Made by a program: the position numbers and the translations under genes
The notes under the pieces: model-generated
Databases searched by the model: none
Seen by the model: only the letters and a program-made list of their open reading frames with translations
Told to the model about the DNA's origin: nothing
NCBI GenBank assembly: GCA_002839375.1
Contig: PGXY01000003.1
Span: 33,863-97,862 of the forward strand
Direction of reading: 5' to 3'
From: Spirochaetae bacterium HGW-Spirochaetae-1
GTDB lineage: Bacteria; Spirochaetota; UBA4802; UBA5550
DNA: 64,000 nt
Part shown: one piece after another, positions 43,841 to 55,601 of the stretch
Position numbering within the stretch: the first letter of the stretch is position 1
How the letters are laid out: each line of letters starts with the position of its first letter

Positions 43841-43957
43841 TATTAGTCCCCATGTCGTTCGACCTTGCAAACCCGAACTAAAAAAATTGTCATTTTTTTA
43901 ATTTTATACCTGTTTTAGTTCATTACATGAAGGGAAAGGACGGCAGTGAAGAGTGTT

Positions 43958-45115
43958 TTATGATTTTCCATCGACAAGTTTGTCTTTCCGGAATTCTGTG
44001 GGGGTCATTCCAGTCACCTGTTTGAACACTGTATTAAAGGTAGTTTTTGAATTGAAACCTGAATTGAAGGCGATATTGAGTATATTAACATCGCGGTATT
44101 GTGGATCGACAAGCATCTTCCGGGCCTCATCGACCCTGTAGGTATTAATGAACATGTAAAAATTCTGATTCAGTCCCGTATTTATGATAATGGAAAGATG
44201 ATGATGGGGAATTTTCACCAGGTCGGCCAGTTCCCGCAGGGTCAGTGAGTCCCTGAGATAGGGTTTATGTACTTTCATGTATTGCATCAGTTCTTCCATA
44301 TACTGTAACCGGATATCATCATCAAGTCTTAATTTTTCATATTTGGGGGCTCTGTCCCCCGCTTCCGGCAGATCGCTGTTTTCACTTCGGGAGAATATTT
44401 CGGGATACCGGATGGTTAAAAAGGTGGATATATATATGGTTGCCAGATAGACGATTAATATAACCAGGACATGACCGCTATTTACATAATTGACCCGGAG
44501 ATCTTTAATCCGGAGCAGCAGGATAATCAATAAAACCACGAATACTGAGGCACCAGCAAGGAAAAAGGACAGCCAGATTAGCCTGATTTTCTCCACATCG
44601 GAGAAATAATATTTCAACCGCTGCTTATACTGTCGCACAATATAGATTGAACGATAAATGTACACCAGTATTAAGACAAGAAACAGTTTAACCACGTTGG
44701 AATATGAGAAGAGCGTTGTATTGTCCTGAAAAGGACTCAAATCCATGGTGCCATCCCATTCAATGATCCGATGGCGGATAATCATGTATAAAATAAAAAC
44801 CGTGAAGGGCAAAAAATGAGGCACATAGCGGGATATCTGCTTTCCCATACTGCCGGTGATGGACAGCGTATACAGATACATGAGCGGCCCATAGAGAAGA
44901 TAAAAAGAGATATTCACATATACCAGATAATAAAAAACCGTATGATTACCCATAATCTTGAAATAATTCATGGACATGCCCAGAGAAATGGCAAAGAAAA
45001 GCATGGCCAGTATTTTATTTGAAAGAATGTTCTTCTTTCTGAACAGGAGGACCATACCCAGAAATATTCCCTGGGATATGGCAACAATAATCATAATGGT
45101 AATAATTTCCGACAC
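43958..45115 (-). CDS. Membrane-bound AraC-family transcriptional regulator
   Basis: The 385-residue protein has seven to eight predicted transmembrane helices in residues 1-240 (AISQGIFLGMVLLF, FLPFTVFILYMII, VLVILIVYLATIYI). A cytoplasmic AraC DNA-binding domain follows at about 280-385: LTLRELADLVKIPHHHLSIIINTGL and ILNIAFNSGFNSKTTFNTVFKQVTGMTPTEFRK. Such regulators sense a membrane or external signal without a separate kinase. It lies upstream of the CocE-like operon on the same strand and is a plausible regulator of it through the palindromes in between. Ligand unknown. Confidence 0.85.
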   Translation of the reverse strand: MSEIITIMIIVAISQGIFLGMVLLFRKKNILSNKILAMLFFAISLGMSMNYFKIMGNHTVFYYLVYVNISFYLLYGPLMYLYTLSITGSMGKQISRYVPHFLPFTVFILYMIIRHRIIEWDGTMDLSPFQDNTTLFSYSNVVKLFLVLILVYIYRSIYIVRQYKQRLKYYFSDVEKIRLIWLSFFLAGASVFVVLLIILLLRIKDLRVNYVNSGHVLVILIVYLATIYISTFLTIRYPEIFSRSENSDLPEAGDRAPKYEKLRLDDDIRLQYMEELMQYMKVHKPYLRDSLTLRELADLVKIPHHHLSIIINTGLNQNFYMFINTYRVDEARKMLVDPQYRDVNILNIAFNSGFNSKTTFNTVFKQVTGMTPTEFRKDKLVDGKS

Positions 45116-45278
45116 GACAGTTCATCCGATTGCGACATCTGTCCCGCGCGGGGCAGGCATATATGCACACTGTATGAGCGGACATACTGAGTCCCGATTC
45201 CGTATCATGGGATAATCAGGGAGGCTCAGAGCAGGAAAGGATACACCAAAAAACAATTTTTGTCAAGACATATCCTTA

Positions 45279-45620
45279 TTAAAGACGCGGCGGATGCATA
45301 TCCCCACGGTCGATAGTTTTAAAAAAGCGGCTCCAGGAATAGGTCCCCGTGAGTTCGATGGCTCCTTTGTGGCATATGGCCCGGCAGTCGCCGCAGGCGA
45401 TGCACTGGCCCAGGCCAGGATCCTTGCCCAGCACGCCGTCACGGGGTCGCATATGAGCTTTTTTATCTGCAATATAGATGGAATCGGCCGGGCAGGCCTC
45501 GGCGCAGATGCCGCAGCCCGTGCATTTATTTTCATCGATAGTGATTGTTCCCCACGATATCTGTTTCAGGTTTTTATAATCGGGCATGAATATTTTTTCG
45601 AAGAATCCCATTTTTGCCAT
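45279..45620 (-). CDS. Two-cluster 4Fe-4S ferredoxin-like protein
   Basis: The 113-residue protein has two complete 4Fe-4S motifs: Cys33/36/39/43 (CTGCGICAEACP) and Cys73/76/79/83 (CIACGDCRAICHKG). It has short N- and C-terminal extensions. ATG 45620 is preceded by AAGGAGAC; the longer frame to 45743 overlaps the nitroreductase gene and lacks support. It lies 10 bases after the nitroreductase-like gene and is the last gene of a five-gene minus-strand group. A likely role is electron supply to the dehydratase/reductase system or to the flavoenzyme, an inference from position. Confidence 0.88.
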   Translation of the reverse strand: MAKMGFFEKIFMPDYKNLKQISWGTITIDENKCTGCGICAEACPADSIYIADKKAHMRPRDGVLGKDPGLGQCIACGDCRAICHKGAIELTGTYSWSRFFKTIDRGDMHPPRL

Positions 45621-45630
45621 AACTGTCTCC

Positions 45631-46350
45631 TTAATATACAACCTGTTTTTTTCCATCCTCATACCAGTCCACGGCATGGGTCTCACGGGGCACCATCCCG
45701 TCAGGGTTACCCCGGGGCCATCCAACGGCGATACTGGTGACAAATTTATAGGGATATGATATTCCCAGTCTTCTCTTCCACGTGGGGCTGTACTTGAATG
45801 CCGGTTTTGAAAAGCTTATCCAGCAGGTTCCCAGCCCCATGCTGTGGGCCGCGAGGACGATATTCTGGCCGGCAATGCCGCAGTCCAGGTCAGGATTACC
45901 CACGCCGCGTACATCCTTGAATACGAGGATCACCGTGGGGGCGCCGTGGAAAAGTCCCAGCCTTTCACGGGCGATAAGATCAACGGCACCGAAAGGCACG
46001 GGATGCAGCTCGAAACGGTTGAAACGAATGATCAGCTTGGTCAGGGGGCGCAGCCAGTAGAATCCCGGTCTGCGGTAATCGATCATGGCCCTGAATATTC
46101 TAAGATACCATGACACCGTTTCCGTCATCTCCCGGATCACTTCCTGGTCCCGGATCACTATGAACTTCCATGGCTGGGCATTGCCCGCCGAAGGAGCGAA
46201 TCGTGCCGCCTCGAGAAGGCGTTTGATCATGAATTCCGGAACCTGTTCTTTTTTATAGAGGCGAACGCTGCGCCGGTTCAGGATCACTTCCTCGGTTTCC
46301 GTATAATTTTTTTTAAGTTTTTCCACGTTTCCTTCCCGAATATTTTTCAT
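45631..46350 (-). CDS. Nitroreductase-family flavoprotein
   Basis: The 239-residue protein has RRSVRLYKKEQVPEFMIKRLLEAARFAPSAGNAQPWKFIVI, the FMN-binding start of the family, then GIAGQNIVLAAHSMGLGTCWI and SIAVGWPRGN. A middle insertion (about 85-135, hydrophobic/basic, FRAMIDYRRPGFYWLRPLTKLIIRFNR) suggests membrane contact or a special partner. Members reduce nitro groups, quinones or enones, or dehydrogenate. It sits between GMC oxidoreductase and ferredoxin, with gaps of 15 and 10 bases, so the three are surely co-transcribed. The substrate is unknown. Confidence 0.85.
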   Translation of the reverse strand: MKNIREGNVEKLKKNYTETEEVILNRRSVRLYKKEQVPEFMIKRLLEAARFAPSAGNAQPWKFIVIRDQEVIREMTETVSWYLRIFRAMIDYRRPGFYWLRPLTKLIIRFNRFELHPVPFGAVDLIARERLGLFHGAPTVILVFKDVRGVGNPDLDCGIAGQNIVLAAHSMGLGTCWISFSKPAFKYSPTWKRRLGISYPYKFVTSIAVGWPRGNPDGMVPRETHAVDWYEDGKKQVVY

Positions 46351-46365
46351 ATAGAAACACCTCGC

Positions 46366-47760
46366 TCATTTTTTCAGGGGCTTCAGCAATCCTTTCTTTT
46401 TAAAATTGCTGTCCCGGACAAACCGATCTTCGGGCTGCACCTTTCCCAGCAAAAACTTGGACAGGAGCCGCGACATGCCCATGATGCTGAGACTGGGCGG
46501 GGCTCCGGGAGAAACGGGAAAAACACTGGCGTCGCATACATACAGGTTTTCGAATTCACTCCTGAAATCCCTCTGTACATACTTGCCGATTTCAATGGTC
46601 CCGCCGGGATGCCCGCCGGCCCAGCGGAGTTCCGAGATACTGTTCTCCTTCGCCCTGGCGCGGATCAGGATTTCCCTGGCCACATCAACGCCCTTCTGCA
46701 TGCGTTTTTCATCGCTTGGTGTCATGGGTTTACTGGTCCTCTCATTGGGGTATATCTCTCCCTTGTCGTCCTCAGCCAGTTTTACGAAGAGGCCCATGCC
46801 CCGCTTAACCCAGGGCAGCTTGTACCAGTTTTCCCGCATGACCTTGGGGCGGATCATGTTCATGACGCACCAGGTTCCCCAAGCACCATTGTTTCCTATC
46901 ATAAAACCGTCGCTGTCGGCAAAAGTTTCAATGGCGTGTGAAAAAGTTTGTTCTCCCCATTGCCCGCCTTTGGGGTCTTTGCTCAGGGCGAAGAGTATGG
47001 TCATGGGGTCCATGAAAAAACGCTTACCTGCATAGTTAACGCCCGATCGCAGCAGTATCCCCGGACTTCCGATACCGCCGGCAGCGAGAATAATGGTATC
47101 GCCGAATATCTTTTCACCGGTTTTCATTTCCACGCCCAGGACCTTTTTCCCGGTATCATCGAAAACAAGCCGGTGAACCGGGGAAGAGACCCGCAGTTCA
47201 GCGCCATATTCCTCAACGGCCTTATCCACATAGCGCCTCGTGGTCCACTTTGCGTCCCGGGGACAGCCCAGCATGCACCAGTCGCATCCCAGTTTGCACT
47301 TCTCGGGGTCGACAAATTTTTCCTGTTCCTCGAAGTGGGCACCCATATCTTCAGCGGCCTTCATCATTCTTTGAAAACCCGTATTTCCATTACGGTTGTA
47401 AAATTCCGGGGGAAGCGTTTTAACACCGATTTCCTTTTTGATTTCATCGGTCTCGGTCCTGAAATCGATACCCATCTTTTTTATAAATTTTTCCGTGGGA
47501 TCGAAAACGTTACCCTGGTATATCATGGACGAACCGCCCACAGTGAGTCCCCGTTCCATTACGACACCTTCTTTGGACCGGTTGAACATAAAAAACCTTT
47601 CCGATAGACGCATACCCAGGGGGAAGCCGATAAAATGTTTATGGTACGCCCCCCGTTCCAGCATGAGCACTTTCTTGCCGGCCCTGGCAAGCTCCAGTGC
47701 CACGGGCGCTCCGCCGGGCCCCGTTCCTATTACGATGTATTCATACTGTTTCTGATTCAT
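46366..47760 (-). CDS. GMC-family FAD oxidoreductase with a four-cysteine motif
   Basis: The 464-residue protein has the FAD dinucleotide fold VIGTGPGGAPVALELARAGKKVLMLERG, the GMC block GLTVGGSSMIYQGNV, IILAAGGIGSPGILLRSG and a C-terminal LYVCDASVFPVSPGAPPSLSIMGMS. A CX3CX2CX3C motif (Cys155, 159, 162, 166) in the substrate region could hold an Fe-S cluster or zinc. Related GMC proteins act on long-chain or steroid alcohols. It is placed 15 bases upstream of the nitroreductase gene and 49 bases downstream of the dehydratase-subunit gene. GAGAGG precedes its ATG. Confidence 0.87.
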   Translation of the reverse strand: MNQKQYEYIVIGTGPGGAPVALELARAGKKVLMLERGAYHKHFIGFPLGMRLSERFFMFNRSKEGVVMERGLTVGGSSMIYQGNVFDPTEKFIKKMGIDFRTETDEIKKEIGVKTLPPEFYNRNGNTGFQRMMKAAEDMGAHFEEQEKFVDPEKCKLGCDWCMLGCPRDAKWTTRRYVDKAVEEYGAELRVSSPVHRLVFDDTGKKVLGVEMKTGEKIFGDTIILAAGGIGSPGILLRSGVNYAGKRFFMDPMTILFALSKDPKGGQWGEQTFSHAIETFADSDGFMIGNNGAWGTWCVMNMIRPKVMRENWYKLPWVKRGMGLFVKLAEDDKGEIYPNERTSKPMTPSDEKRMQKGVDVAREILIRARAKENSISELRWAGGHPGGTIEIGKYVQRDFRSEFENLYVCDASVFPVSPGAPPSLSIMGMSRLLSKFLLGKVQPEDRFVRDSNFKKKGLLKPLKK

Positions 47761-47809: not shown

Positions 47810-49003
47810 CTACAGATATACCTTGTAATTGTCCCCTGAAGTCCGGACAAGATCATCACTCGTGGCTTTTTTATTACGCACCTGTTCAAAGAAGGCCTGG
47901 ACCCGGGTCCGTATCTGTCCCTGCCCGCCGCCGTAGAGCTCCCGCTCCAGGGCAAGGATGGGGAAATTTTTCTTCACCGCGTCCTTCCGATAAATAAAAA
48001 GTTCCCCTCCCCACAGATCGCAAAATTTCAGTTTCTCGGCGATGATAGCGTCAATGGCATACTCTTTTTTAATATCCTCAATATAAGCAAGACGCTTACG
48101 AAAATCATTCATCATGCGGGGACACGAGAGATGCGATAGATAGCGCACCGCCAGGGCCCGAACAGGTTCCCCTGATTCATCGACGGCAAGATTGAAATGC
48201 CTGCTGCCAAGGCAAATATTATCGGCAACAATAACGGCGCCGCAGTCCTCGATTAGTTCCATGTGCCCGATCTCTTCAATGCATCCCGATGAAAAAAATA
48301 TGCGGAGATCATCGGGCCGGGAGACAACACGTTCCTGACAACCCTGAATGAAGGACTCCAGCATCGCGATAGCGTCCTCCACAGGCATGGCCGTTATGCA
48401 GAGCATCAGTGCCAGAATTTCGCTTCCCTTTACGGGAACATTCTTCGCTTTTCGCAGTTCATAAATATCGGCAAGAAGTTTCCGTTTTCTGTTATACAGC
48501 CGTATGGATTCGGCGATATTCCCATCCTCGATAGTTACACTGAAATGTTTCTCAACAGCGCCTTTAAACTTATGTATTTCAGCAGTAAACTGATCCATGG
48601 CCAGGTCATTCACCAGGTGCGGTGCGACAAACATATATCTGAAATCAGGCGCCACATCGGCATGCCTCCAGTTGTCGTAGAGCCTGCGCGTATGATCACA
48701 GCCGTTCATAAATACAATGCCGTCGAGAAAATGGAAATCCCCCTCCATGACTTTATTGAAGCAGTTGCGCACAAAAGTGCAATTCAGGGCTGAAAAATAG
48801 ATATCCCCCTTGGCCGTACCCGATCCGGCAACGGCCCTCATGCGGTACGGGATGAATCCGGCAGCATGTATAATTTCTTCAGGAACGTAGGAGCAGAAAT
48901 ACCCGATTATCTTTTTTCCTTCCCTTTTTGCGGAATCAAGGAATTCGTTGTAATCCTTTGCGGCCAGTTCCTTCACTTTTTCAAAGATGTCCATCATATC
49001 CAC
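47810..49003 (-). CDS. 2-hydroxyacyl-CoA dehydratase/benzoyl-CoA reductase-type catalytic subunit (small)
   Basis: The 397-residue protein matches the HgdB/BcrB/FldC family: IIGYFCSYVPEEIIHAAGFIPYRMRA, then cluster-ligand candidates Cys75 (NCTFVRN), Cys102 (NGCDHTRRLYDNW) and Cys328 (LKFCDLWGGE), and SSGCIEEIGHMELIEDCGAVIVADNICLGSRHF. Such subunits hold a 4Fe-4S cluster and bind acyl-CoA; an ATP-driven activator injects one low-potential electron. A GTG start at 49003 has AGGAG six bases upstream. Its start overlaps the stop of the larger subunit gene, showing translational coupling. The substrate cannot be read from sequence. Confidence 0.87.
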   Translation of the reverse strand: MDMMDIFEKVKELAAKDYNEFLDSAKREGKKIIGYFCSYVPEEIIHAAGFIPYRMRAVAGSGTAKGDIYFSALNCTFVRNCFNKVMEGDFHFLDGIVFMNGCDHTRRLYDNWRHADVAPDFRYMFVAPHLVNDLAMDQFTAEIHKFKGAVEKHFSVTIEDGNIAESIRLYNRKRKLLADIYELRKAKNVPVKGSEILALMLCITAMPVEDAIAMLESFIQGCQERVVSRPDDLRIFFSSGCIEEIGHMELIEDCGAVIVADNICLGSRHFNLAVDESGEPVRALAVRYLSHLSCPRMMNDFRKRLAYIEDIKKEYAIDAIIAEKLKFCDLWGGELFIYRKDAVKKNFPILALERELYGGGQGQIRTRVQAFFEQVRNKKATSDDLVRTSGDNYKVYL

Positions 49004-50403
49004 CCGTGACTCCTGAAGAATTCCGTAACCGAGTTGCGCACTCCCGCTTCGTCAAGATGCCGTTGATCCATTATATCGATGCTCAGGTACAGCGTGGGAA
49101 GTTTTCTTTCACGGCATATGTCCTGAATGATCTTCACCGCGGCCCATCCGTGCTTGCATCCCTGGTGACCCGTGAATATCATACAGTCCACATTATAGGC
49201 CTCTATGGCCGCCTCCATTTCATCGGTAATGAACTCAACGGGACCATGGCACTGCCGGCCCATGGCCAGGTGCATCTGTGTCTTGGCAAAATCCCGTATC
49301 ATGCTTTCCTTTGATGAAGTATCAATATCGACAGTTGACACATTGCCGATGAAATCGGCAACCACAACGGCGCCGTATTCTTCTTCCATCCATTTGAAGA
49401 GATAGGTAAAAAAGGCAATGGGAGGAAACCAGAGCAATATCCGTATTTTCTCCTTCTTTACAACGCCCTTCCCTTTTATATAATTACTGTGAATGGCCTT
49501 GTGCATGGCCTCGGCCATTTTCAGTGCGTAGGGGGAACGGACATTAATTTCACGCACGACCCAGGCAAAGAGGAGGTTGATATGCGTACCCGGACAGGGA
49601 ATGGCGCGGTTCATCTCGCATATCTCCGAGAGATAATAATTGAACTTATTCAGCCGGTTCAGCATGTCCGTGAGTTTTTCCCAGTCTATCTTCCGGTCCA
49701 GGTGCTTTTCCAGGAACTCTATCTGCTTCCATACCTGCTTCTCAAAGTATTCATAGGAATATTCATCACGCCAGTATGGCACATCAAAAATAAAGGAAGG
49801 AACCTCGAGCAGATATTCGAAAGACTGGGTGATAGAAACATTGGTGTCGCAGGGATGGGAACCGGCAATGGTCATGGCCGGTTTCGGGATCTGGCCCAGG
49901 ACATAAGCCCCCATATCGAGTTTCATGGCCGAGCAGTATTCCACGGGTACACCGTAGCTCTCGGCCTCTTCAATAAGGGACCAGGGGCCGGCGGCCCCGT
50001 ACACATTGCCAAAAACATTGAGCAGCGCCGAGTTAAAGGAGGTCACATCAAAGGCCTCAAGCATCTCGGGATTCAATATCCACTCAACCCATATCACGGG
50101 CTTGCCCTTTTTCACGCTCCTTATGACGTCGTTTATATTTTCAATAACGGCCTTTGCTCCATACCCATAGGCCTTGAAAACATCGGGCGAGAGAAGACCG
50201 GCGCCCACGGTAAGCAGTCCGTACCGCAGTTTCCGGTTAAGGAAGTTTTCCCTCAAGGGCACATAGAGAGGGCGCAGGACGAAAAGCAGGACTGTTGCCA
50301 GACGCGGCACCTTGGAGAAAAAATAAACGAGATACAGAAGCATCCTGGTCAGTTTCAGCATTTTAAGAGGCTTCAGTTTTTTCACCCTGTTTTCAGCAGC
50401 CAT
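48994..50403 (-). CDS. 2-hydroxyacyl-CoA dehydratase/benzoyl-CoA reductase-type catalytic subunit (large)
   Basis: The second catalytic subunit (469 residues) belongs to the same fold. Ligand candidates are Cys157 (YCSAMKLDMGAY), Cys185 (SHPCDTN) and Cys416 (GHQGCKHGWAAVK), and the typical tail TLYLSIDIMDQRHLDEAGVRNSVTEFF is present. Unusual is a basic-hydrophobic N-terminus (about 10-50: KLTRMLLYLVYFFSKVPRL and ATVLLFVLRPLYVPL), suggesting membrane association. ATG 50403 has GGGAGAGGG upstream. It heads the minus-strand group and is divergent from the two ATPase activator genes across about 190 bp. Substrate unknown. Confidence 0.83.
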   Translation of the reverse strand: MAAENRVKKLKPLKMLKLTRMLLYLVYFFSKVPRLATVLLFVLRPLYVPLRENFLNRKLRYGLLTVGAGLLSPDVFKAYGYGAKAVIENINDVIRSVKKGKPVIWVEWILNPEMLEAFDVTSFNSALLNVFGNVYGAAGPWSLIEEAESYGVPVEYCSAMKLDMGAYVLGQIPKPAMTIAGSHPCDTNVSITQSFEYLLEVPSFIFDVPYWRDEYSYEYFEKQVWKQIEFLEKHLDRKIDWEKLTDMLNRLNKFNYYLSEICEMNRAIPCPGTHINLLFAWVVREINVRSPYALKMAEAMHKAIHSNYIKGKGVVKKEKIRILLWFPPIAFFTYLFKWMEEEYGAVVVADFIGNVSTVDIDTSSKESMIRDFAKTQMHLAMGRQCHGPVEFITDEMEAAIEAYNVDCMIFTGHQGCKHGWAAVKIIQDICRERKLPTLYLSIDIMDQRHLDEAGVRNSVTEFFRSHGWI

Positions 50404-50594
50404 ATCCCTCTCCCGGAAATTGATAAAAGGCGACAATACTTATGATACACATTATACACATTACATTAAAGCTGTCGTGTACTTTATGAAGTAATAATTT
50501 ACAATATTCAAATAGTGCCGTGATCAATCCTTGACAAATTTTACTATTTCATGCACTATCATGTGACAGAATTAAGAGGATAGACAAAAAAGTC
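50404..50594. promoter_or_regulatory. Divergent promoter region of the dehydratase/activator module
   Basis: This gap lies between divergent starts at 50403 and 50595. On the plus strand TTGACA (50531-50536) and CACTAT (50554-50559) are 17 bases apart, a plausible sigma70-type promoter for the activator genes with a weak -10. No clear minus promoter was chosen. Confidence 0.45.
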
Positions 50595-51455
50595 ATGGGC
50601 ATCAATAATGAAACAGGCAATGATTCATGTATCACCGCCGGTTGCGATGTGGGGTCCCTCACGGCCAAGGCCGTGCTCCTGCGCGGCAATACAGTGCTGG
50701 CATCTTCCATCATACGGGTCAAACCCACGGCACGCCAGTCGGCCGACGCGGTAATGCATGAGGTTCTCTCTTCGCAGGGCCTGCGAATGGAGGATATTGA
50801 TTTCTGCTGCAGCACCGGGTACGGGAGGCTGGAAATTCCCTTTGCCGGCATGAACATGAGCGAAATTTCCTGTCACGGCATGGGAGCCCACTGGGCGGAA
50901 CCATCAATCCGCACCATAATAGATATTGGCGGGCAGGACTGCAAGGCCATCAACATCGACGACCGCGGCATGGTCACGGATTTTATCATGAACGATAAGT
51001 GTGCTGCCGGCACGGGCCGTTCCCTGGAAATGCTGGCCAGAACCATCGGCGTGCCTCTGGAAAAGTTGGGTCCCCTGTCGGCAAAATCCCGCAGACCCCT
51101 CATGATCAGCAACAAGTGCAGTATCTTCATGGAACTGGAAGTAATCGACGCATTATATAGAAGAAAAAAGCTCAGGGATATCGCCGGCGGTCTTTCCGAT
51201 GCCGTTGCCCGGCGCGCCGTGAGCCTGGCAAAATCCCTTGTCATCACACCGCAGGTCTGTGTAACCGGCGGTGTTTCGAAAAACCAGGGGGTCCTCAGGC
51301 AAATCGAAAAACTCATGGATATCAGGCTTAAATCCCTCTCCATTGATCCGCAACTCATGGGCGCCCTGGGAGCTGCGATATTCGCCATGCGGGCACTGAC
51401 AGACAAGAAAGACAACAAGGAGGCCATGAACATCCATGATAACGGCAGGAATTGA
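50595..51455 (+). CDS. BadF/BadG/BcrA/BcrD-type ATPase activator, first copy
   Basis: The 286-residue protein has the actin-fold ATPase signature of dehydratase activators: AGCDVGSLTAKAVLL (phosphate 1), STGYGR, IIDIGGQDCKAI (110-117 region, complete DIGGQD), NDKCAAGTGRSLEM with cluster Cys136, SNKCSIF with Cys175, and VCVTGGVSKNQGV. The two Cys bind a 4Fe-4S cluster between the subunits of a dimer. It would couple ATP hydrolysis to electron delivery into the catalytic subunits encoded divergently. Its end overlaps the second activator gene by 20 bp. Confidence 0.9.
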   Translation: MGINNETGNDSCITAGCDVGSLTAKAVLLRGNTVLASSIIRVKPTARQSADAVMHEVLSSQGLRMEDIDFCCSTGYGRLEIPFAGMNMSEISCHGMGAHWAEPSIRTIIDIGGQDCKAINIDDRGMVTDFIMNDKCAAGTGRSLEMLARTIGVPLEKLGPLSAKSRRPLMISNKCSIFMELEVIDALYRRKKLRDIAGGLSDAVARRAVSLAKSLVITPQVCVTGGVSKNQGVLRQIEKLMDIRLKSLSIDPQLMGALGAAIFAMRALTDKKDNKEAMNIHDNGRN

Positions 51456-52224
51456 TGTAGGGACACGTTTCCTGAAGATATCCATTGTAGACGGCACCGT
51501 GCTCATCGGTTCCGCCGTCGTGGAGATGAGGGGTACATTCAAAAAAACCTCAGTCGGCGCTTTTGACAGGGCTCTTGCCGCCGCCGGCATCAAAAAAAGA
51601 AATATAAAAAAAATAATTGCTACGGGATACGGCGGGCATCTGGTAAAAAAGGCTATTTATACCCTCAAGGATTCGGCCTGCATCGCCCGGGGAGCCTGGC
51701 TTCAGGACAGGAGAATAAAGACCGTAATCGATGCCGGGGGCCTCTTCATCAAGGTTGTCACCATAGATGAAAGCGGTTTTCTGGAACAAAGCTATGAGAA
51801 CGAAAAATGCGCCGCCGGCAGTGGACGGTTCCTGGAGATGATCGCGGAATCCATCGATATTCCTTTCAGCGACATTTCACGATTCGCCGCAGATTCCATG
51901 AATCCCTATGTATCCACGAGCACCTGCGCGGTTTTCGCCGAGAGTGATATCATCACCCAGATCAACATGGGCCGCCATGGGGGAGACATCATCGCCGGGG
52001 TGATCAACTCCATCGCAGCAAAAACAGTGACACTGGTACAGGGAGCGTCAGCTGAAGGTCCCGTGGCCATCACGGGAGGACTGGCAAAAGTACGTCACTT
52101 CAGGGACGAACTCATAAAGCGCCTGGATCATGAAATCATCGACTGCCCTATTGATCCCCAGGTGCTGCCCTCCTACGGAGCGGCGCTGCTGGCCCAGGGG
52201 ATTGAGCTCAACCGGCGGCATTGA
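51436..52224 (+). CDS. BadF/BadG/BcrA/BcrD-type ATPase activator, second diverged copy
   Basis: This 262-residue paralogue has TAGIDVGTRFLKISIVDG, ATGYGG, EKCAAGSGRFLEM with Cys125, STCAVFAES with Cys164, and VAITGGLAKVRHF. The DIGGQD block is degenerate (IDAGGLFIKVV, 98-108), losing the Gln-Asp pair. It overlaps the first activator gene. A heterodimer of one complete and one altered ATPase, like BcrA/BcrD, is a reasonable inference. Whether the altered copy hydrolyses ATP is not known. Confidence 0.88.
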   Translation: MITAGIDVGTRFLKISIVDGTVLIGSAVVEMRGTFKKTSVGAFDRALAAAGIKKRNIKKIIATGYGGHLVKKAIYTLKDSACIARGAWLQDRRIKTVIDAGGLFIKVVTIDESGFLEQSYENEKCAAGSGRFLEMIAESIDIPFSDISRFAADSMNPYVSTSTCAVFAESDIITQINMGRHGGDIIAGVINSIAAKTVTLVQGASAEGPVAITGGLAKVRHFRDELIKRLDHEIIDCPIDPQVLPSYGAALLAQGIELNRRH

Positions 52225-52413
52225 CAACCCCCGCCATGGAAAGGCGGTAAAATATATCGACCGCTATGATATTTACCAGAATTTGCCAACATAACACTTT
52301 ATGAAGTTCCATCATTCCCGTCTTCACATGGTACAAGACAGGAAGAATATAAATGTATATGCTTATTCTGTAAGTATGTACAACACAAAATGAATTCCAT
52401 GGGGAGATTTAAT

Positions 52414-53820
52414 ATGAGAGATGTTTATATCATCGCATCGCACACCATCCGTTTCGGACGGTACCTGGAAAAGACCATCCCGGAACTATCAGAAATGACC
52501 GTAACGCCCTGCCTCAAAGAGGCCGGTCTTAACAAGCAGGATATTCAGGCGCTGTGGTTCGCCAATTCAGCCTGGGGGGAATACCGACGACAGACCTGCA
52601 TCCGGGCCCAGGTGGCTCTCCGGCCTATGGGCATCGACACCATTCCCATGACAAATGTGGAGAACGCCTGCGCCGGCGGCTCCACGGCCCTGCATCATGC
52701 CTGGATGGCTGTTGCAGGCGGGGTGCATGATATCACCATGGCCCTGGGCGCTGAGAAAATTTATGATAAAAATCAGGCCCTTGTGTTCTCCGGGTTTCTC
52801 ACGGGAATGGATGTGGGCAACCTTATCAGCATCATGCAGGATTTTACCAAGTACAGTCTGACCGAACAGGATAGGACAGATATGAAGAACCACCGCGTCA
52901 AATATCCCATGCCGGTAAAAAGCGGCGGTAAAAAGACAAAATCCCTCCGGGACAAATATAAAGACATCCGCGATAATCTTGTGGTGGCCGTCAGGATCGG
53001 CGAAAGCATGGGTTATGATGTGCTGAAGGAATTACGAAAACTGGGTTCAGGCGACCATTCGCCCTTCATGGATGTGTACGGGCATGAAGCACGGAAGCAC
53101 ATGAGGAAATACGGCACAACCATAGAGCAGCTGGCCTTCATTGCCTCAAAAAATCATTTTCATTCCACTATGAATCCCAATGCTCAGTACCAGTTCGATG
53201 TGGCCTTCGAGGATGTACTGCGTGACAGGCTGGTAACCTGGCCCCTCACCCGATCCATGTGCGCCCCCATTGGCGACGGGGCCTCCTCAGCCATTCTCTG
53301 TGACGAAAAAACCGTGCGACGCCTGGGCCTCATGAGCCAGGCTGTAAAAATACGCGCCTCGGTTATGGGTTCCGGCAGGGCACGCCTGGAGGATGAGCCC
53401 AACATAGGCGAACGTCTGGCCCGACGGGCCTACGATATTTCAGGTACCGACCCCAAAGACATGAACGTGGCCGAGGTGCATGATGCCACGGCCTACGGTG
53501 AACTGCACCAGACCGAAAACCTGGGATTCTGCAAAAGGGGCGAAGGCGGGCATCTGGCTTTGAGCGGTGCAACTAAACTTGGCGGACGCATACCCGTCAA
53601 CACCAGCGGTGGCCTTGAGTCCCGGGGTCATCCCATCGGTGCTTCCGGTCTGGGGCAGGTTCATGAAATCGTGACACAGCTCCGCGGAAAGGCGGGACAG
53701 CGCCAGGTAAATAAAGCACGACTCGGCATCGCTGAAAATGGCGGAGGTGCCCTGGGTGTTGAAGAGGCTGCCATGTGCATACATATACTTGAAGCGCCTT
53801 CCGGCAAATCAAAAAAATAA
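52414..53820 (+). CDS. SCP-x-like thiolase / acetyl-CoA acetyltransferase family protein
   Basis: From ATG 52414 (GGGGAG seven bases upstream) the protein has 468 residues. It has the thiolase nucleophile block NVENACAGGSTALHHAWMAVAGG, MCAPIGDGASSAILCDE, DMNVAEVHDATAYGELHQTENLGFC, and the catalytic GGLESRGHPIGASGLGQVHEI. The motif HD-T in place of HNAF puts it in the SCP-x/lipid-transfer thiolase branch, which acts on branched or sterol side-chain 3-ketoacyl-CoA or has non-degradative roles. It follows the activators by about 190 bases and precedes the acyl-CoA ligase. A cytoplasmic role in acyl-CoA cleavage or condensation is likely. Confidence 0.85.
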   Translation: MRDVYIIASHTIRFGRYLEKTIPELSEMTVTPCLKEAGLNKQDIQALWFANSAWGEYRRQTCIRAQVALRPMGIDTIPMTNVENACAGGSTALHHAWMAVAGGVHDITMALGAEKIYDKNQALVFSGFLTGMDVGNLISIMQDFTKYSLTEQDRTDMKNHRVKYPMPVKSGGKKTKSLRDKYKDIRDNLVVAVRIGESMGYDVLKELRKLGSGDHSPFMDVYGHEARKHMRKYGTTIEQLAFIASKNHFHSTMNPNAQYQFDVAFEDVLRDRLVTWPLTRSMCAPIGDGASSAILCDEKTVRRLGLMSQAVKIRASVMGSGRARLEDEPNIGERLARRAYDISGTDPKDMNVAEVHDATAYGELHQTENLGFCKRGEGGHLALSGATKLGGRIPVNTSGGLESRGHPIGASGLGQVHEIVTQLRGKAGQRQVNKARLGIAENGGGALGVEEAAMCIHILEAPSGKSKK

Positions 53821-53894: not shown

Positions 53895-55601
53895 ATGAAC
53901 AGATTGACAATCGGTAAAATCAGGATGATGAAAAACATGATGCGTTCCATCACCATCTTCCTCATAAAAGAATTCAGGAGAGGAACTCTCAGGGCCAACA
54001 TCAGGGGCATTAAAAAAATGGAACTTCAGGAGGAAATGTCCTGGGGTGAACTGATAGAAGAGCAGGCCCGCAAATATGGAGAAAAGACATTCCTCATTTT
54101 CGAAAAAGAGACATACAGCTATGAAGATATGGATAAAAACGCCAATCGCATGGCCAATTTTTTCCTCTCGCTGAAAGGGGAAAAGGGAAAGGGCGTAGCC
54201 CTGTTCATGGAAAATTCACCACGTTTCCTCGATGTCTTCATTGGACTTCAGAAAATCGGCATGTATTCAGTCCCCGTGAACACATCACTCAAGGGCGACA
54301 GCCTGTTGTATATCCTGAACCACTGCGACGCTCAGTACCTGGTAATAGACGACATATATCTTGACCTATTGTTAAAAATAATAGACAGGTTTGAGAACAT
54401 AAAAACCATCATCGTCAATAAAACATCTCATAATATTCAAGAGACTTCTGGCAAATATTATTCACTCCAGGAAGCCTACGGCATGTCATCGGTTAACCCG
54501 GAAACCGGATACAACAAAGAAGACATCTGCTTCATCACCTATACATCGGGAACAACGGGTCTGCCCAAGGGTGTCGTATACCGCTATAAAAAAACACCAG
54601 TCAAAAGCCTGTCCCTGGTGGCATACATGCTCTTCAGGAAAAAGGATATTCTCTATACCGCCATGAAACTCTTCCATGGCAACGCGCTCTTCGTCACCAC
54701 GACCTGTGCCATGTGTGCCGGTTCCACCGTGGTCCTGTCACGGAAATTTTCCGCCAGCCGTTTCTGGGATGATATCCGTAAATATAAAATTACATCTTTC
54801 AACACAATCGGGGCCATGATTCCCATGCTCATGAAACAGCCGGAAACCCCCCTTGATAGAAAAAACAATGTCCGCTTCATCATATCTGCGGCATGTCCTG
54901 CAAACCTATGGGAACAGTTTGAGAAACGCTTCGGCCTCACCATCTATGAAGCCTACGGTGCAGTGGATGGCGGCGGCAAGATAATCCTGAACCTGGGGAC
55001 AGCACCCGTGGGTTCCATCGGCAAACCGCCCATGAAAGTAATTCACAGGCTTGTGGACAGCGGAATGAATGATGTCCCCCTGGGAGCCGAGGGTGAACTG
55101 GTCTTTGCCGCCCCTAAAAACACCGGTAAAGGCAGCTCCGTTGAATATTACAAGAACGAGAAGGCCAGCAGTGAAAAATCAGACAGCGAATGGATTTTTA
55201 CCGGCGACATAATGAAAAAGGATGAAAAGGGCTACCTCTATTTCGTAGGCAGAAATACGGAGTCTATGCGCATAAAAGGAGAAAATGTTTCAGCCTTTGA
55301 AGTAGAGCAGGCCCTGCAAAAACATCCCCATGTCATGGAAGCTGCAGTTTATGCCGTGCCGTCGGAACTGGCCGAGGATGACATTATGGCCAGCATAACT
55401 CTCGTTGAGGGCCAAAAGATTTCCGAGAGAGATATCCTTGAATTTATAAAGGATAACCTGCCGAAATTTGCCGTGCCGCGCTATGTGAAGATTGTTGATG
55501 AATTCGCTAAAACCGAAACCTTCAGGATTAAGAAGAAGGAGATCGAGTCCATGGGCATAGTTCCCGGCACCTATGATTCTCAACAGAATGCATTCCGGTA
55601 A
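53895..55601 (+). CDS. AMP-forming acyl-CoA synthetase, long-chain/FATP-like
   Basis: The 568-residue ANL enzyme has the P-loop FITYTSGTTGLPKGVVYRY, motif IYEAYGAVDGG, WIFTGDIMKKDEKGYLYFVGR, GENVSAFEVEQAL and the C-terminal lysine region ETFRIKKKEIE. It activates a carboxylic acid to acyl-CoA through an acyl-AMP. A basic N-terminal ~45-residue extension precedes the core (WGELIEEQARKYGEKTFLIF). The order resembles fatty-acid-transport-type ligases, suggesting a long-chain or bulky substrate. GGGGAG precedes ATG 53895. It ends the plus group, before a strong terminator. Confidence 0.9.
   Translation: MNRLTIGKIRMMKNMMRSITIFLIKEFRRGTLRANIRGIKKMELQEEMSWGELIEEQARKYGEKTFLIFEKETYSYEDMDKNANRMANFFLSLKGEKGKGVALFMENSPRFLDVFIGLQKIGMYSVPVNTSLKGDSLLYILNHCDAQYLVIDDIYLDLLLKIIDRFENIKTIIVNKTSHNIQETSGKYYSLQEAYGMSSVNPETGYNKEDICFITYTSGTTGLPKGVVYRYKKTPVKSLSLVAYMLFRKKDILYTAMKLFHGNALFVTTTCAMCAGSTVVLSRKFSASRFWDDIRKYKITSFNTIGAMIPMLMKQPETPLDRKNNVRFIISAACPANLWEQFEKRFGLTIYEAYGAVDGGGKIILNLGTAPVGSIGKPPMKVIHRLVDSGMNDVPLGAEGELVFAAPKNTGKGSSVEYYKNEKASSEKSDSEWIFTGDIMKKDEKGYLYFVGRNTESMRIKGENVSAFEVEQALQKHPHVMEAAVYAVPSELAEDDIMASITLVEGQKISERDILEFIKDNLPKFAVPRYVKIVDEFAKTETFRIKKKEIESMGIVPGTYDSQQNAFR

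Follow-up and report, generated by a model that had tools for sequence, protein, structure and literature searches.

A conserved pair of overlapping activator genes, one with an altered nucleotide site, beside a predicted double-cubane-type reductase in a spirochaete genome

We analyzed a stretch of 64,000 nucleotides (the window) from contig PGXY01000003.1 of Spirochaetae bacterium HGW-Spirochaetae-1. Two genes on its forward strand, designated here actA (50595-51455, 286 amino acids) and actB (51436-52224, 262 amino acids), have reading frames that overlap by 20 bases. Both products passed the cut-offs of NCBIfam TIGR00241 (acyl-CoA dehydratase activase; 220.9 bits for ActA and 158.4 for ActB, cut-off 125.4) and of Pfam PF01869 (BcrAD_BadFG; 174.3 and 109.3 bits, cut-off 31.5). 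The nucleotide site of these activators, which we take to be of the ASKHA type, carries phosphate-1, phosphate-2 and adenosine motifs. ActA is the canonical half, with DVGSLTAK as phosphate-1, DIGGQD as phosphate-2 (50922-50939) and TGGVSKN as adenosine motif. ActB is the altered half: its phosphate-1 motif reads DVGTRFLK (51454-51477; family norm DxGSxxxK), its phosphate-2 motif reads DAGGLF (51730-51747), where the first Asp is retained but Leu and Phe stand in place of the Gln and the second Asp, and its adenosine motif reads TGGLAKV (52072-52092; family norm GGVxxN). The xxGGQD form, a usual but not family-defining trait, is thus present in ActA and missing from ActB. Both cluster cysteines are found in each protein: C136 (51000-51002, in KCAAGTGR) and C175 (51117-51119, in KCSIF) in ActA, and C125 (51808-51810, in KCAAGSGR) and C164 (51925-51927, in TCAVFAESD) in ActB, all on the forward strand. 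A previous sequence-only reading of this region had reported the DIGGQD/DAGGLF difference and the retention of both cluster cysteines by the altered copy, and our analysis confirmed these observations.

Among solved structures, the nearest relative of ActA was MbdQ of 3-methylbenzoyl-CoA reductase (E 1.1e-60), and that of ActB was HadI (E 2.1e-34). The equivalog cut-offs for BcrA, BcrD and BzdQ (TIGR02259, TIGR02261, TIGR03192) were not reached, the best score being that of ActA against BzdQ (196.6 versus 380.2 bits). ActB was modelled with AlphaFold from an alignment of two rows, and the model was poor (pLDDT 56.3, pTM 0.51). The two genes probably each encode one half of an ATP-driven electron pump that serves an enzyme resembling benzoyl-CoA reductase.

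Two genes on the reverse strand encode HGD-D subunits (PF06050). The product of 47810-49003 (397 amino acids) is a counterpart of BzdN and DCCP, both of which it matched in PDB. Its C37, C75, C102, C264, C294 and C328 align with the six cysteines common to these two proteins and are invariant in seven aligned rows, including two more proteins of this genome. The product of 48994-50436 (480 amino acids) is a counterpart of BzdO and MbdO, with PDB matches that were weak (E 2.7e-11 to MbdO and 5.8e-11 to BzdO). Its C168, C196 and C427, invariant in five rows, align with the BzdO [4Fe-4S] ligands Cys95, Cys128 and Cys380, as numbered in PMC11971306; against BzdO, the segment with the third of these cysteines does not reach significance alone, and the MbdO alignment shifts the second by one residue. 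Of the two residues that flank the active-site cluster of BzdO, His131 is matched by Asn in this weak alignment, and the Glu65 region falls outside it.

The same source describes the BzdN double cubane as held by six cysteine thiolates, without numbering them, and states that dehydratases have lost the double cubane (PMC11971306). On the basis of these six thiolates, the six aligned cysteines of 47810-49003 were taken as predicted double-cubane ligands. In the alignment, HadC lacks two of the six, all of which are present in 47810-49003. The gene content of class I benzoyl-CoA reductases, i.e., two different activators and two HGD-D subunits, was found in the window and in four related loci, and their double-cubane and [4Fe-4S] cysteines were found by alignment. 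2-Hydroxyacyl-CoA dehydratases, by contrast, normally have one homodimeric activator; two different activator genes were present in all five loci. Because the double-cubane and [4Fe-4S] cysteines are retained and dehydratases lack the double cubane, the enzyme served is probably a reductase, of the class I benzoyl-CoA or double-cubane type, rather than a 2-hydroxyacyl-CoA dehydratase. The dehydratase comparison made in the sequence-only reading needs correcting accordingly. The name benzoyl-CoA reductase would nevertheless be unwarranted, since the proteins are below all equivalog cut-offs and Asn aligns with BzdO His131.

Several other redox and CoA-related genes lie close by. On the reverse strand, a GMC-family oxidoreductase (46366-47760) has relatives by the reductase genes in three of the four related loci (L045, L046 and L047). 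It is accompanied on the same strand by a nitroreductase-family flavoprotein (45631-46350), a possible electron input, and a 4Fe-4S dicluster protein (45279-45743; the ORF begins upstream of the match), a possible electron donor. On the forward strand, a thiolase-like protein (52390-53820) and an AMP-forming acyl-CoA ligase (53895-55601) both have relatives beside the pair in two of the four (L046 and L047). The thiolase-like protein scored below the cut-off for each of the 25 NCBIfam families listed for it (303 bits against 420 at best), and its two matched parts seem to be separated by an insert.

In four of the five loci, genes for an acetyl-CoA-synthase-like protein and a CooC-like ATPase directly follow actB (L046:7751-9312, L047:11323-12917, L045:456-2001 and L048:9840-11437). 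The first resembles the central portion of acetyl-CoA synthase (E 2.7e-6 to PDB 6ytt) and has a C-x4-C-x2-C-x5-C tail of four C-terminal cysteines; the second has a CxC motif (E 2e-12 to PDB 3kje). This arrangement suggests a metal-insertion module tied to a double-cubane reductase. The window locus lacks both genes, and profile searches of this genome detected only more distant versions, on contig 7. There, a ten-gene cluster (L051:6260-16373, corresponding to 146260-156373 of contig 7) encodes two HGD-D enzymes of double-cubane type, an activator pair that is symmetric (DIGGQD in both halves) and a further activator on its own, together with two acetyl-CoA-synthase-like proteins and one CooC-like ATPase. 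Relatives of these acetyl-CoA-synthase-like and CooC-like genes are found next to activator genes in various other genomes of this order.

The ActA/ActB pair was detected in 5 of the 46 genomes of the order (the same 46 genomes make up the class), and these five genomes represent three families (f1, f4 and f7). A profile built from the five ActB sequences separated them clearly in these 46 genomes, with five members at 445 bits or more and the next match at 217 bits. In a phylum sample of 392 genomes, the same five were the only matches above 217 bits among the best candidates, of which at most six per genome were scored and kept only at E 1e-45 or better. A scan of genome contigs added one distant relative, in Secundilactobacillus (L044), whose two domains are included in the domain count given below. 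A contig-end fragment in one genome (L126 in G006) resembles a sixth ActB and lacks the adenosine Asn; the GGLF region is absent from the fragment.

Identity of the other four ActB orthologues to the window protein is 39-52%. All five have GTR[FY] in phosphate-1 and D-x-GGLF in phosphate-2, and all replace the family Asn of the adenosine motif by Val, Ile or Leu; all retain the first Asp of each phosphate motif (D7 and D99). DIGGQD is present in all five ActA partners, and the two cluster cysteines are invariant across ActA and ActB orthologues. The two frames overlap in all five loci (with starts as called mechanically), and both HGD-D subunits share the locus with the pair in every case. Since GGLF occurs in all five orthologues and two further motifs, which the sequence-only reading had not mentioned, are altered alike, the change in ActB is not a sporadic mutation.

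ActB evolves faster than ActA, yet is under purifying selection. Between two of the genomes (G006 and G022; NG86 method), ActA had a dN of 0.078 and a dS of 1.292, and ActB a dN of 0.184 and a dS of 1.447, with dS near saturation. Sequencing error or a pseudogene was ruled out as a source of ActB by the five orthologues and by dN far below dS. In the tree, ActA and ActB each formed a clade (support 100/99), and the splits {window, G043} and {G006, G022} were present in both. Branch sums, added by hand from the Newick tree, were about 1.9 for ActA and about 3.8 for ActB. Together, the shared splits and branch sums imply that the two genes travel together and that ActB evolves approximately twice as fast. 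In the best tree, ActB adjoins other altered halves, those of genome G024 and Rhizobium, possibly as a result of long-branch attraction. AU tests rejected none of the alternative groupings of ActA with ActB (p 0.080), ActB with the second pair (p 0.084), or ActA and ActB with all pairs (p 0.165). That ActB is a plain BcrD or BzdQ orthologue was rejected on the equivalog cut-offs and on its separation from MbdP in the best tree, a joint clade of ActB and MbdP being itself not rejected (p-AU 0.137).

To place ActB in a wider context, 98 non-redundant activator domains (at least 40 bits and at least 180 residues, near-identical copies dropped) were compared. They came from three sources: sequences similar to ActB, PF01869 matches in this genome and P0002 plasmid hits. 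Both cluster cysteines are retained in all 98 domains. The xxGGQD form is present in 88, including all 44 single activators. Each of the ten domains with an altered phosphate-2 motif belongs to a tandem pair with a canonical partner and none to the 44 singles (Fisher p 0.0019, for a sample that is neither random nor independent, as five of the ten altered rows are the single orthologous group of ActB). The others are G024 (DIQGQS), Rhizobium L093 (YIGADS) and halves of three fused proteins (IIGGEK, SLGGEN and ELGGED). Arg in phosphate-1 was also found in three domains with intact GGQD. The sample contained 27 tandem pairs, of which 24 are encoded by separate genes, and among the latter only the ActB group is altered at all three motifs.

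The G024 pair (L063:9079-10737) combines DIGGQD with DIQGQS and adjoins two divergent HGD-D proteins. In the Rhizobium leguminosarum plasmid pair (L093:5147-6873), the first half has YIGADS and lacks TGYGR, and the second has DVGGQD; two HGD-D genes and rhodanese-like genes are found nearby.

A second sample was drawn from another class of the phylum, with 30 loci from 30 of its 198 genomes identified by a TIGR00241 search (domains of less than 150 residues dropped). It comprised 13 two-domain proteins and 17 one-domain loci; one of the two-domain proteins with an altered half (L147) is split across two frames, and the single domain of L145 may have been part of a longer, fused protein. Altered phosphate-2 motifs were present in 9 of the 26 paired halves (seven EMGGED, one EIGGEG and one DIGGES) and in none of the 17 single-domain loci; seven of the nine are the mild EMGGED form, and all nine are in fused-type two-domain proteins. 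GGQD was found in both halves of 4 of the 13. The fused activator-dehydratase proteins (L144, L146-L149 and L151-L158) have two N-terminal activator domains, the first of which is altered in 9 of 13.

One protein of this genome did not fit the pattern. A fused protein of 1605 amino acids (contig 12, about 43866-45410; L011 and L013), below the filter for the 98 domains, reads DIGGED in the clearer of its two activator domains, the other being barely recognizable; neither half has xxGGQD. If counted, it would be a tandem pair without such a half and would speak against the presence of one canonical half in every pair. Other matches dropped by the filter were a piece of one canonical activator (L124) and a sugar-kinase-like stretch (L012). 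The counts of altered halves in both samples indicate that, at the level of sequence motifs, asymmetry in activator pairs is recurrent but not universal. Pairing in itself did not predict asymmetry: 17 of the 24 pairs encoded by separate genes, including the pair on contig 7 of this genome, are canonical at phosphate-2 in both halves, which the sequence-only reading had not noted.

It is probable that ActA and ActB form a heterodimer. The earlier proposal of a heterodimer with one special half has the best support, given the overlapping genes in five of five loci, the splits shared by the trees, and the retention of cysteines in all 98 domains while phosphate-2 is altered only in paired halves; the corrections made above concern the type of enzyme served and the link between pairing and asymmetry. 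From motifs, conservation and linkage we infer the heterodimer, the loss of hydrolysis in ActB, the cofactors, the electron path and the reaction. ActA:ActB would be an obligate heterodimer with one [4Fe-4S] cluster held between C136/C175 of ActA and C125/C164 of ActB. ActA would bind and hydrolyze ATP. ActB would retain the fold and cluster ligands around a remodelled nucleotide site and, in view of GTRF, GGLF and an adenosine motif without Asn, would probably not hydrolyze ATP. The dimer would receive a low-potential electron, possibly from the dicluster protein encoded nearby, and ATP hydrolysis in ActA alone would lower the potential of this electron. The electron may then pass to the predicted double-cubane cluster of 47810-49003 and on to the predicted [4Fe-4S] site of 48994-50436, and these two subunits would carry out ATP-coupled reduction of a CoA thioester. 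A cluster-bridging heterodimer in which ActA hydrolyzes ATP and ActB does not is, in our assessment, somewhat favoured by these data. The solved 3-methylbenzoyl-CoA reductase, with its two unlike activator subunits, and the published cost of one ATP per electron in benzoyl-CoA reductases also speak for it.

The two sites might instead both bind and hydrolyze ATP, with GGLF as a tolerated variant that contacts phosphate through the backbone. We regard this as rather unlikely, albeit with several points on its side or against a single working site. The leading Asp of both phosphate motifs is retained in ActB, which may therefore still bind nucleotide; its phosphate-1 Arg recurs in the three domains with intact GGQD, and the Ser to Thr replacement is mild. 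Other ASKHA proteins, e.g., actin, have hydrophobic residues near the GGLF position and yet hydrolyze ATP. MbdP of the solved 3-methylbenzoyl-CoA reductase is also altered, more mildly, and its family spends one ATP per electron; PMC6739815 reports this cost for benzoyl-CoA reductases, against most probably two ATP per electron in the dehydratases. Loss of the adenosine Asn is not decisive, because DCCP-R and one single activator (L138) also lack it and because changing this residue in E. coli acetate kinase lowered the rate only about 2-fold and raised the Km for ATP, as reported in PMC4390882. The same paper reports that changes in phosphate-2 and adenosine residues of acetate kinase cut catalysis greatly. 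Two working sites are also difficult to reconcile with the presence of the Gln and Asp of GGQD in 88 of 98 domains and all 44 singles, and with three motifs altered together in every ActB orthologue.

Another possibility is that ActA forms a homodimer and needs no partner, as is usual among dehydratases, with ActB serving separately in regulation or storage. Close relatives of ActA include the solved HgdC and HadI, which work singly, and a review allows either homodimers or heterodimers for such activators. The overlap of the genes in all five loci, the same splits in both trees and the retention of cluster cysteines in ActB while its nucleotide motifs changed argue against this view, which we consider improbable. 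A decaying copy of the activator on its way to loss could account for the roughly doubled rate of ActB, but its frame is intact in all five orthologues, dN is far below dS, and the same changes persist at 39-52% identity; this explanation is already disfavoured and has very little probability.

Among the closest known systems is the 3-methylbenzoyl-CoA reductase (PDB 9gai), of the class I kind, which likewise has two different activator subunits, MbdQ and MbdP, and a two-subunit HGD-D enzyme, MbdN and MbdO. MbdQ is canonical (DMGGQD, GGVAKNVG) and MbdP is altered (DIGGQT, GGIMRWG); only the Asp of GGQD is replaced in MbdP, by Thr, whereas ActB replaces both Gln and Asp by Leu-Phe. The BZD type (BzdPQ/BzdNO) has the same kinds of genes, and the six BzdN/DCCP and three BzdO [4Fe-4S] cysteines align; however, the window proteins fall well short of the equivalog cut-offs for BzdN, BzdO and BzdQ, the last being the activator subunit compared. 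The 2-hydroxyacyl-CoA dehydratase activators HgdC and HadI belong to the same family and share the cluster motif with ActA and ActB. They are single proteins that form homodimers, whereas ActA and ActB are products of two different genes. The NCBIfam model nearest to 47810-49003 was that of DCCP (198 bits, below the cut-off of 350). DCCP is a homodimer according to PMC11971306, whereas the window locus has two kinds of catalytic and two kinds of activator subunits. Among the titles and opening lines of abstracts listed by searches of an open-access collection, we found no activator pair with one altered nucleotide site and, beyond PMC11971306, no paper on the MbdQ/MbdP structure or DCCP-R.

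Tandem BcrA-family activators may repeatedly become dimers of "one motor, one holder", with the ActA:ActB pump running on a single ATP site; we put this forward as a tentative generalization that is somewhat less likely to hold than to fail. In such dimers, the ATP motor would persist in one half; its partner would no longer hydrolyze ATP but would still need its cluster cysteines. ActA:ActB would then be the most radical case encoded by separate genes, the altered half still being a member of the family despite three changed motifs. If this is true, a cost of one ATP per electron would be built into a pump that serves an undescribed double-cubane reductase. We hypothesize that altered halves are linked to the ATP cost per electron. 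The ATP-coupling mechanisms of activators are not yet fully understood, as noted in PMC6739815, and ActA/ActB, with one intact and one clearly remodelled site, is a natural case for asking whether the ATP cost is set by how many sites hydrolyze. The altered halves are also candidates for identifying residues needed to hold the cluster and to dock, independently of hydrolysis. Finally, since several activators, both tandem and fused, are asymmetric, this may be a recurring route in the family.
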